NCBI RefSeq assembly: GCF_014251635.1
Contig: NZ_CP059194.1
Location: 62,001 to 126,000 of the forward strand
DNA: 64,000 nt
Reading direction: 5' to 3'
Origin: Blattabacterium cuenoti
Lineage (GTDB): Bacteria; Bacteroidota; Bacteroidia; Flavobacteriales; Blattabacteriaceae
Each line of letters opens with the position of its first letter. Positions within the stretch are counted from its first letter, which is position 1. Positions 2-4,139 of the stretch are shown here, piece after piece. The position numbers were made by a program, and so were the translations under genes. The notes below the pieces were generated by a model. That model did no database searches. It was not told where the DNA came from and saw only the letters and a list, made by a program, of their open reading frames with translations.

Positions 2-400
2 GGAAATGTAGGATGTATGGTGAATGGAGCTGGATTAGCTATGGCTACTATGGATATGATTAAGTCTTGTGGAGGAATTCCGGCTAATTTTTTAGATATA
101 GGAGGGTCTGCTGATCGAGAACGTGTAGAAAAAGCATTTTATTTGATATTAAAGGATAAATCTGTAAAAACAATATTAATCAACATATTTGGAGGGATTG
201 TTCGTTGTGATACGGTTGCAGAAGGAATTGTCAATTCTTATTCTAAAATTCATCATGATATTGAAATTCCTGTAGTTGTTCGTTTGCAAGGAACAAATGA
301 AAAAGTAGCAAAAAAATTGATTAAAAAAAGTTTATTACCTATTTATTTTACTGATACTTTAAAAGAAGCTGCTGATAAGATTCAAGAAATTATAAGATAA
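2..400 (+). CDS. sucC: Succinyl-CoA ligase (ADP-forming) beta subunit, 3' part
   Basis: This is the C-terminal part of the succinyl-CoA ligase beta subunit; the gene enters from the left edge. The frame is open from base 2 and begins [18 protein letters not shown], the conserved stretch at the start of the CoA-ligase domain. The ATP-grasp half lies outside the window. The rest ([12 protein letters not shown], [19 protein letters not shown]) matches the family closely. The enzyme makes ATP from succinyl-CoA in the TCA cycle, alongside gltA and fumC in this window. The internal ATG at 17 is not the real start. It ends 12 bases before dnaX. Confidence 0.95.
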
Positions 401-412
401 GATTCATTTTTT

Positions 413-1903
413 ATGAAAAAAAATTTTTCTGTATTATCTGAAAAATATAAACCCTTAAAATGGAATGAAGTAATAGGACAAAAAGACATAATTTTTCTTT
501 TAAAAAAAACAATACAAGAAAATTGTTTATCTAAAATTTTATTTTTCTTTGGTCCAGAAGGAGTCGGAAAAAATACATGTGCTCGGATTTTATCAAATGA
601 ATTAAATTCTTTTTCAGAATTAGAAAATACCCCTTTGAATCTATTTGAAATTAATGGTCTATTTAATAATTCATTAGAATTTTTTGATAAAATCATCAGC
701 CAATCTCGTTTTATCCCTAAAATAGGAAAATACAATGTATTTATCATTAATAATATACATATGTTTTCTCAATATTTTTTAAATTTTTTTCTAAGATTCT
801 TAGAAGAAAAACATACACATGTATTATTCATTTTTTGTGGAACAGAAGAAAGAAAAATTCCAAAATTTATTTTATCACGTTGCCAAGTTTACGAATTCAA
901 AAGTATTTCTACAAAAGAAATTTTTTTTCATTTAAAAATGATCGCTGAAAAAGAAAATATAAAAGTAGAAAGTGAAGCGTTATTGATTTTATCAAAACAT
1001 GTAAAAGGATCTATTAGTAAAGCTCTTTATTTATTTGATAAATTAATTTTATATAGTGAAAAAAAAATATCCAAAGATTTTATAATTCAAAAATTAGGAA
1101 TTATTGATATAAAGTATTATTTTAAAATAGTAGATTATCTTTTAGATAAAAAAATACATAAAGCGTTTATTTTATTGGATCAAATTTTACAAGAAAAAAT
1201 TGATTCTTATGATTATTTAATTATAGGATTAATCAAACATTTCAGAAATTTATTTTTATCTAAAAATTATGAAACAATTTCTGTTTTGAAATTTAAAAAA
1301 GAAATAATATTCTCTTACGTTGCGCAATCAAAAAAAATGTCTTATTTTTTTTTAGTGAATGCTTTAAATATTTGTTTTCGTTTGAAAAGAGAATATGAAA
1401 GATTAAATCAAAATTATCGATTAACAATCGAAATTTATTTAATACAGTTAGCATATTTGTTTCATAATAATAATAAAAATTCTTCCTTAATAGAAGAAGA
1501 AGAAAAAAAAAATGAAAAATTTTATAAGAATCATGAAATCATTCAATTCTTACAAAAGAATTGGACAGAATTTGTACATAAATTTTATGGGAAAATAAGT
1601 CCTATTTATTTATATTTTTTGAAAAATGAAATAGAATTTCAAATAGAAAAAAATAAAATATTTTTTATTATCCCATATAAATTAGGAAACCATAGTTTTT
1701 TGTTCATTCAAACACATTTTTTAAAATATTTTAAAGAAAAATTAAATAATCTACATTTAGAATTTGAAATAGTGAAAAAAAATTCAGATACAATAAAACA
1801 ATATAATCTTTTATATCAGAAAAATCAATTAATAGAAACATTAATAGAACGGTTGAATTTAAAAATTTCTTCTTCTGAAATACAAGAAAAAAAAAACTTT
1901 TGA
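413..1903 (+). CDS. dnaX: DNA polymerase III subunit gamma/tau, ATPase motifs degraded
   Basis: This is the DnaX clamp-loader subunit, 496 residues. The N-terminus (LSEKYKPLKWNEVIGQKDI) and the lid region are typical, and the arginine-finger SRC motif is kept (R156). The C-terminal region is Lys/Asn/Phe-rich and resembles the flavobacterial tau tail. The ATPase signatures are altered. Walker A reads GPEGVGKN (residues 47-54), with Asn54 where Ser/Thr is expected. The Walker B Asp-Glu is Asn-Asn (N113, N114, in FIINNIHM). The four zinc-binding cysteines after the P-loop are missing. The reading frame is intact, so this is not simple pseudogenisation. Identity as DnaX rather than HolB rests on the N-terminal signature and the long C-terminal extension. 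Confidence 0.88.
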   Translation: MKKNFSVLSEKYKPLKWNEVIGQKDIIFLLKKTIQENCLSKILFFFGPEGVGKNTCARILSNELNSFSELENTPLNLFEINGLFNNSLEFFDKIISQSRFIPKIGKYNVFIINNIHMFSQYFLNFFLRFLEEKHTHVLFIFCGTEERKIPKFILSRCQVYEFKSISTKEIFFHLKMIAEKENIKVESEALLILSKHVKGSISKALYLFDKLILYSEKKISKDFIIQKLGIIDIKYYFKIVDYLLDKKIHKAFILLDQILQEKIDSYDYLIIGLIKHFRNLFLSKNYETISVLKFKKEIIFSYVAQSKKMSYFFLVNALNICFRLKREYERLNQNYRLTIEIYLIQLAYLFHNNNKNSSLIEEEEKKNEKFYKNHEIIQFLQKNWTEFVHKFYGKISPIYLYFLKNEIEFQIEKNKIFFIIPYKLGNHSFLFIQTHFLKYFKEKLNNLHLEFEIVKKNSDTIKQYNLLYQKNQLIETLIERLNLKISSSEIQEKKNF

Positions 1904-2018: not shown

Positions 2019-4139
2019 ATGATTCATCATTATTCGTCAAACAGTAGAAAAAAAATTTTTTTCTCTTCTGCTTATTCCGATGAAGATATTGAAAATGATA
2101 GTACTGCCTCTTCTTATGGATCTGGAGGGAGTGGAACAGGTTCTGGTTATTATGGAGGAGGGTCTTCAATAAGAAGTAAAACTCCTGTTTTAGATAATTT
2201 TGGACGAGATTTAAATTCCATAGCGATGGAAGGAAAATTAGATCCAGTGGTAGGTAGAGATAAAGAAGTTGAACGTGTATCTCAAATATTGAGTAGGAGA
2301 AAAAAAAATAACCCTCTTCTTATAGGAGAACCTGGAGTAGGAAAATCTGCTATTGCTGAAGGGTTAGCGTTGCGTATTGTGCAGAAAAAAGTTTCTAGAG
2401 TATTGTATAATAAGAGAGTCGTTGTATTAGATTTAGCAAGTTTAGTTGCTGGAACTAAATATAGAGGTCAATTTGAAGAAAGAATGAAAGCCATTATAAA
2501 TGAATCAGAAAAAAATACAGGACTAATTCTTTTTATAGATGAAATTCATACTATGATTGGAGCAGGAGGGACTACAGGTTCATTAGATGCTTCTAACATA
2601 TTTAAACCGGCCTTAGCGAGAGGAGATATTCAATGTATTGGCGCTACTACACTAAATGAATATAGACAATACATAGAAAAAGATGGAGCATTAGAGAGAA
2701 GATTTCAAAAAATCATTGTGCAACCTTCTTCTGAGGAAGAAACCGTAGAAATATTAAAAAAGATAAAAGGAAAATATGAAAGTCATCATAATGTTATTTA
2801 TACAGAAGAAGCGATAAAAGCTTGTGTACATCTTACTGTACGATATATTGTAGATCGTTTTTTACCAGATAAAGCGATTGATGCTTTAGATGAAGCGGGA
2901 TCCCGTGTTCACATTAAGAATATAAAAGTTCCACAGGAAATAGTTCTTTTGGAAAAAGAATTAGAAAGCATTCGAAAAGAGAAATCTAAAGTAGTTAAAA
3001 GTCAAAAATATGAAGAAGCGGCACGATTACGTGATACAGAAAAACGGATAGAAAAAAAATTAATAAAAGCTCAAAAAGAGTGGGAAGAATCTTCTAAAAA
3101 AAATAAAGAAATTGTATCCGAAGAAAATGTTGAAGAAGTGGTGTCTATGATGAGTGGAGTTCCAGTAAATAAAATAGCTCAAGCTGAAATGAAAAAATTG
3201 AGCAAAATGATAGATATATTAAAAGAAAAAATAGTAGGACAAAATGAAGCTGTAGAAAAAATAGTAAAAGCGGTTCAAAGAAATAGAACTGGGTTGAAAG
3301 ACCCCAATTCACCTATAGGTTCTTTTATTTTTTTAGGACAAACAGGAGTAGGAAAAACTTATTTGGCAAAAATTTTTGCTAAAGAATTATTTGATTCTGA
3401 GGAATCATTAATTCGAATAGATATGAGTGAATATATGGAAAAATTTTCTGTATCTAGATTAATAGGGGCCCCTCCAGGTTATGTAGGTTATGAAGAAGGA
3501 GGACAATTAACAGAGATTATACGTCGTAGACCTTATTCTGTAATATTATTAGATGAGATCGAAAAAGCTCATCATGAAGTATTTAATGTTTTATTACAAA
3601 TGTTAGACTATGGATGTGTAACAGATAGTATTGGAAGAAAAATAAATTTTAAAAATACCGTAATTATTTTTACTTCAAATACGGGAACACAACAATTAAA
3701 AGAATTTGGTCAGGGAATAGGTTTTCATACTCAAGCAAGAAAATTAAACAATTATATTAAAAATGTATTAGAACAAGCTTTAAAACGAACTTTTTCTCCT
3801 GAATTTTTAAATAGAATAGATGATATTGTTATTTTTAATTCTCTATCAAAAGAAGATATATCAAAAATAACTTGTATAGAATTGAAAAAAATAATTCTTC
3901 ATGTACATAATTTAGGTTATGAATTAGTCCTATTTCCTGAAGTAATAGATTTTATTAAAAAAAGAGGATTTGATCAAGAATACGGAGCTCGTCCTTTAAA
4001 AAGAGTAATAGAAAAATTTATAAAAAATCCTATATCTGAATATATAATTAGTGAAAAATTAAAAAAAGGAGATAAAATTTCACTAAAAATGAATGCAAGT
4101 TATGACAATGTAAAAGTATTAATTAGTCAAAAAAAATGA
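2019..4139 (+). CDS. clpC: ClpC-type AAA+ unfoldase lacking the N-domain
   Basis: This is a 706-residue double-AAA+ chaperone. It has Walker A1 GEPGVGKS (residues 103-110), Walker B1 ILFIDEIHT, a short M-domain with a UVR-like KYEEAARLRD stretch, Walker A2 GQTGVGKT and Walker B2 VILLDEIEKAHHE. The short M-domain indicates ClpC rather than ClpB. An IGF tripeptide in the second AAA+ domain fits ClpP docking. The usual N-terminal double Clp-repeat domain is absent: residues 1-52 are Ser/Gly/Tyr-rich and run straight into the conserved KTPVLDNFGRDL linker. The 115 bp upstream cannot encode the missing domain. It probably feeds substrates to ClpP, with altered adaptor use. Its stop overlaps the nth start. 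Confidence 0.9.
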   Translation: MIHHYSSNSRKKIFFSSAYSDEDIENDSTASSYGSGGSGTGSGYYGGGSSIRSKTPVLDNFGRDLNSIAMEGKLDPVVGRDKEVERVSQILSRRKKNNPLLIGEPGVGKSAIAEGLALRIVQKKVSRVLYNKRVVVLDLASLVAGTKYRGQFEERMKAIINESEKNTGLILFIDEIHTMIGAGGTTGSLDASNIFKPALARGDIQCIGATTLNEYRQYIEKDGALERRFQKIIVQPSSEEETVEILKKIKGKYESHHNVIYTEEAIKACVHLTVRYIVDRFLPDKAIDALDEAGSRVHIKNIKVPQEIVLLEKELESIRKEKSKVVKSQKYEEAARLRDTEKRIEKKLIKAQKEWEESSKKNKEIVSEENVEEVVSMMSGVPVNKIAQAEMKKLSKMIDILKEKIVGQNEAVEKIVKAVQRNRTGLKDPNSPIGSFIFLGQTGVGKTYLAKIFAKELFDSEESLIRIDMSEYMEKFSVSRLIGAPPGYVGYEEGGQLTEIIRRRPYSVILLDEIEKAHHEVFNVLLQMLDYGCVTDSIGRKINFKNTVIIFTSNTGTQQLKEFGQGIGFHTQARKLNNYIKNVLEQALKRTFSPEFLNRIDDIVIFNSLSKEDISKITCIELKKIILHVHNLGYELVLFPEVIDFIKKRGFDQEYGARPLKRVIEKFIKNPISEYIISEKLKKGDKISLKMNASYDNVKVLISQKK

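Follow-up and report, generated by a model that had tools for sequence, protein, structure and literature searches.

Blattabacterium keeps a DnaX clamp-loader protein with lost catalytic residues and no detectable delta or delta' subunit

Background

Sliding clamps and ATP-driven loaders are regarded as near-universal needs of cellular chromosome replication. The clamp-loader family also includes members with a structural role and no ATP hydrolysis, such as E. coli delta' (HolB) and yeast RFC5. In known clamp loaders the collar serves as the oligomerisation domain.

Loss of the clamp loader in tiny symbionts is already known. Clamp-loader or clamp genes have been lost in Sulcia and Uzinura, two tiny flavobacterial symbionts (PMC3971599, PMC12016543). 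In the first of these papers, dnaX of Blattabacterium is scored as present (PMC3971599). We found no paper in the open-licence literature that names Blattabacterium together with "clamp loader", and none on a conserved dead DnaX, on loss of the DnaE clamp motif or on clamp deletion with retention of DnaX in this genus.

Here we describe the dnaX locus of Blattabacterium cuenoti and its counterparts in related genomes. The window, i.e. the whole stretch of 64,000 nucleotides that was analysed, comprises positions 62001-126000 of a single-contig genome of 635,117 bp (G000).

Results

The dnaX gene of the window (413..1903) is an open frame of 496 amino acids, placed between its conserved neighbours, sucC upstream (3' part, 17..400) and clpC downstream (2019..4139). 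These and all window features below lie on the + strand. An earlier reading of this DNA, made without database searches (the sequence-only reading), had described a lone DnaX-like gene with intact frame and destroyed ATPase motifs. It had proposed alignment with relatives, searches for a second dnaX, holA and holB, a structure model and dN/dS as checks.

Family searches assign the ORF to NF011531 (E=2.3e-89) and TIGR02397 (1.8e-67), in both cases with scores under the curated NCBIfam cut-offs, and it matches E. coli gamma/tau at 4.6e-30. The first ~350 residues are predicted to fold like a clamp-loader subunit, with AAA+, lid and collar domains; the best PDB match of the model (residues 7-352) is 8vam_D, an E. 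coli clamp-loader chain (E=3.4e-22). These matches identify the ORF as DnaX (gamma/tau) by descent, not HolB. Alignment and predicted fold place the collar at residues ~226-345 (1088..1447). It is followed by a linker with a tract of ten adenines (A10, 1503..1512) and by a C-terminal domain (residues ~376-490; 1538..1882) homologous to the flavobacterial tau C-terminus (L148, E=4e-4). The latter is modelled with pLDDT below 50 and its fold is not identifiable.

Searching with PF13177 extends the observation of a lone DnaX-like gene from the window to the whole 635-kb genome, where window dnaX is the sole gene of the DnaX/HolB family. The other PF13177 match is weak, under the cut-off, and lies inside an 883-aa frame. 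Outside the window there are also two RuvB-like matches of equal score, 2 kb apart (C1:161497-161679 and 163498-163680). Their frames, of 198 aa and 328 aa, might represent a partial tandem duplication and occur in this genome only.

The catalytic site of window DnaX appears to be dead. Its P-loop, GPEGVGKN (residues 47-54; 551..574), retains Gly and Lys, and Thr is replaced by Asn (AAT, 572-574). Walker B Asp-Glu is replaced by Asn-Asn at residues 113-114 (AATAAT, 749..754). Both substitutions, GKN at residues 52-54 included, had been read exactly from the sequence. The alignment adds the replacement of sensor-2 Arg by Ser (S202, 1016..1018). K53, the sensor-1 Thr (T144, equivalent to E. coli T157) and the Arg finger (R156, 878..880) are all retained.

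We compared these motifs in 46 alignable Blattabacterium DnaX and in 29 DnaX of the same order and family. Walker A Thr, Walker B Asp and Glu, both Thr of the sensor-1 region, the Arg finger and sensor-2 Arg are invariant in all 29 relatives, whereas the complete set is found in none of the 46 Blattabacterium proteins. At the Walker A position, Thr (0/46) has given way to Asn (41), Ser (4) or His (1). Walker B Asp is present in 1/46 and Glu in 7/46, sensor-2 Arg in none, and the Arg finger is retained in 27 and lost in 19. Since the losses are seen genus-wide, they are ancestral to the genus, indicating that DnaX became a pseudo-ATPase in the Blattabacterium ancestor. The claim that destroyed motifs leave no DnaX-driven hydrolysis thus holds for the genus and is strengthened by loss of sensor-2 Arg. 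Sequencing error or chance was rejected as the source of losses that recur throughout the genus.

An Asn in the corresponding place of the P-loop makes GTPases dominant-negative (Ras S17N), as it weakens binding of Mg2+ and of the triphosphate. P-loop Gly and Lys are present in 46/46 Blattabacterium DnaX. Such invariance suggests that DnaX may bind nucleotide structurally, without hydrolysis. The collar is as conserved within the genus as it is across the reference set.

The four zinc-binding cysteines are missing from window DnaX, as had been stated, but their absence is no oddity. Among 6 free-living and 4 symbiont DnaX compared, only FL_L153 has them. The comparison marks their absence as ordinary for Flavobacteriales, shared by most of the free-living members examined and no hallmark of Blattabacterium. 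As a sign of decay it was therefore rejected.

The remaining subunits of the loader were searched for in 49 Blattabacterium genomes. PF13177 yielded no second DnaX/HolB gene above the cut-off, and a HolB profile derived from the sister genera matched only DnaX itself. TIGR01128 (holA) found DnaX itself and weak fragments under the cut-off, inside frames of ~910-930 aa; a family-specific HolA profile gave zero matches. A hidden HolA was rejected on the strength of these two profiles. By these profile searches, delta (HolA) and delta' (HolB) are undetectable in 49/49 genomes.

The same searches recovered delta, delta' and a DnaX whose GKT and DE are intact in four sister symbionts (G049, G050 and G067, 300 kb each; G053, 1.3 Mb). 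For one of them, Walczuchella (G067), the same full set has been published (PMC3971599). Sister genus g5 (G054, G055; L064, L067, L156) possesses HolA, HolB, dnaN and the DnaE clamp motif; DnaX was not detected in its genomes. The P-loop of g5 HolB reads GCGN, without Lys, so that this loader also seems motorless, by a different route.

DnaE is present in 49/49 genomes; with a single exception, its length is ~1,410-1,480 aa. An internal clamp-binding motif (QASLF, QCSLF, KQSLF, KNSLF, KKTLF or QNSLF) occurs in DnaE of 7/7 relatives with loader genes. It is found in none of the 47 Blattabacterium sequences for which the segment could be located; in G007 the segment was not located by pattern, and in G009 the pattern matched a wrong place and absence was read from the alignment. 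The motif is likewise absent from DnaE of the loader-less genera g3 and g6.

DnaN was found in 41/49 genomes. The C-terminal tip reads ILIMS in every aligned Blattabacterium DnaN, against LMLVMPI in close relatives (MPI to MS). The eight dnaN-less genomes form one clade (SH-aLRT 99). In seven of them the neighbours flank a gap of ~150-260 bp, so in these the explanation that dnaN is merely too divergent for detection was rejected by synteny; in the eighth (G015) the gene adjoining the dnaN site is missing too. An open full-length dnaX is nevertheless found in 5/8 genomes of the clade. Outside it, dnaN is fragmented or carries a stop in G016 (L188), G031 (L189) and G033 (L190). A dnaN pseudogene has been published for one strain (PMC6039017).

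Further, Blattabacterium retains both the DnaX C-terminus and full-length DnaE, and genus g2 has lost both. This joint retention and joint loss agrees with a tau-like tether, although Walczuchella breaks the pairing: it has lost the DnaX C-terminus and keeps a full-length DnaE. In G049, G050 and G065 (L159, L160, L175) the DnaE C-terminal region is lost and DnaX has no C-terminal domain, the reverse of Blattabacterium.

At its own locus, dnaX is retained whole or in part in 47/49 genomes. It is cleanly deleted in G025, where 214 bp separate the sucC and clpC matches and dnaN is still present. The locus is an eroded gap in G030, and G038 has only the C-terminal half of the gene. It follows that dnaX is dispensable in some lineages, namely those of G025 and G030. 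Four genomes carry a frameshift in the linker, three of them as A11 where window dnaX has A10.

All free-living Flavobacteriales dnaX examined contain an A9-A10 tract where the collar meets the linker, the same place as in the window, and their other runs reach 5-7 (sites L065 and L129-L153, in free-living relatives and G053; linker, ~codon 355-398). In several of them the C-terminal part is a separate downstream frame. Gamma/tau slippage is known from Thermus (reviewed in PMC5009743), and by analogy the tract resembles a conserved site of slippage or frameshifting that would yield short and long products. The linker frameshifts may thus be tolerated and need not inactivate the gene. Blattabacterium as a whole does not conserve the tract.

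Estimates of dN/dS reveal that dnaX is under purifying selection in most pairs. Values are 0.205-0.468 in 16/17 close pairs and 0.69 in G006-G014; in the same 16/17 pairs, the dead ATPase region alone gives 0.18-0.43. For clpC, close pairs range from 0.04 to 0.23. Neutral simulation at this base composition returned median dN/dS of 0.78-1.10, with 11-16 stops per 0.12 substitutions/site; AT bias, being included in this simulation, is insufficient to account for the low dnaX values. Open frames and dN/dS together disfavour a pure pseudogene. In the dnaN-less clade, dN/dS of dnaX is 0.53-0.82, near the lower neutral range. Flanking genes, clpC included, rise somewhat there as well, and the increase is therefore not read as specific to dnaX; a claim of ATPase-domain relaxation specific to clamp loss was dropped for this reason.

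Discussion

That ATP-driven clamp loading was given up in the ancestor of the genus is well supported. Catalytic residues of DnaX are lost, delta and delta' are not found, DnaE has lost its clamp motif, and dnaN is deleted or changed; it is thus reasonable to conclude that an ATP-driven loader no longer exists as such, its operation being excluded about as firmly as sequence allows. If this were the sole DnaX, the sequence-only reading had reasoned, clamp loading must proceed without its hydrolysis, with another subunit or by an altered mechanism. The copy is indeed the sole one. The assumption that clamp loading still occurs fares worse: absence of delta and delta', loss of the DnaE motif and deletion of dnaN in a clade mostly keeping dnaX suggest that it has largely been abandoned.

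For DnaX itself, we lean towards the role of a non-catalytic, tau-like scaffold, in which binding of DnaE is argued from E. coli tau. Such a scaffold would be oligomerised via its collar and would hold DnaE via its C-terminal domain, its P-loop perhaps binding nucleotide without hydrolysis. For chromosome replication, Pol III would rely on the clamp little if at all, and later lineages would lose dnaN or dnaX piecemeal. A full open dnaX in five genomes without a clamp gene argues that clamp handling is not the whole job of DnaX there. Against a scaffold speaks dnaN in 41/49 genomes, as some clamp function may remain. The dispensability of dnaX in G025 and G030, its near-neutral dN/dS in the dnaN-less clade, the low-confidence model of the C-terminal domain and the exception in Walczuchella count against it as well. 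The picture as a whole is offered as tentative: a genus that might copy ~600 kb chromosomes without an ATP-driven loader, with a polymerase that does not bind the clamp and with DnaX repurposed as a non-catalytic scaffold that has outlived the clamp.

The same 41 genomes with dnaN lend some weight to the idea that DnaX still handles beta without hydrolysis, as an ATP-binding-only or nucleotide-independent oligomer that opens or stabilises beta and allows passive loading for clients other than DnaE. Invariant P-loop Gly and Lys, an Arg finger kept in 27/46 and purifying selection on the ATPase region would suit such activity. However, known loaders open beta with delta, which is missing here, DnaE has lost its clamp motif and the DnaN tip is altered, and five genomes have dnaX without dnaN, with G025 showing the opposite. 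We consider this explanation doubtful. It is also unlikely that DnaX is a functionless relic in the course of being lost, its open frames mere leftovers. The clean loss of the gene from G025, its erosion in G030 and G038, the four frameshifted genes and dN/dS above that of clpC would all be expected of a relic, but dN/dS is far under neutral in most pairs, most genomes have an open frame despite the number of stops expected under neutrality, and the collar is conserved equally in the genus and in the reference set.

Transfer of the motor function to a different ATPase, which the sequence-only reading had allowed for in the form of another subunit, is very improbable. We found nothing in support of it and no alternative ATPase subunit in 49 genomes: no other gene of the DnaX/HolB family exceeds the cut-off, and the remaining matches are weak, fall in unrelated AAA-type frames and are present also in relatives with a normal loader. 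The chance that the motifs were destroyed by sequencing or assembly errors is negligible; nothing beyond the oddity itself speaks for it, and the same losses are shared by 46 genomes of the genus, in mostly intact frames.

The order of dismantling can be read from the states found in 49 related genomes. The loader was disarmed first, by loss of motor residues, delta, delta' and the docking motif; deletion of the clamp in one clade followed, and other lineages lost dnaX. A database annotation of "dnaX present" conceals a dead motor. Blattabacterium makes two matters testable, the roles of DnaX beyond clamp loading and the work of Pol III free of the clamp.

Compared with bacterial DnaX of the E. 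coli/Bacteroidota type (NF011531/TIGR02397), the Blattabacterium protein is alike in family, in AAA+-lid-collar fold, in its C-terminal extension and in homologous position. It differs in the absence of Walker A Thr, Walker B Asp-Glu and sensor-2 Arg, and in having neither delta nor delta' beside it. E. coli delta' and yeast RFC5 sit next to active motors, whereas in Blattabacterium the sole DnaX is the dead one. In contrast to Sulcia and Uzinura, whose genes are simply reported absent, Blattabacterium, with a genome of ~600 kb, combines a dead motor with a conserved, intact gene.
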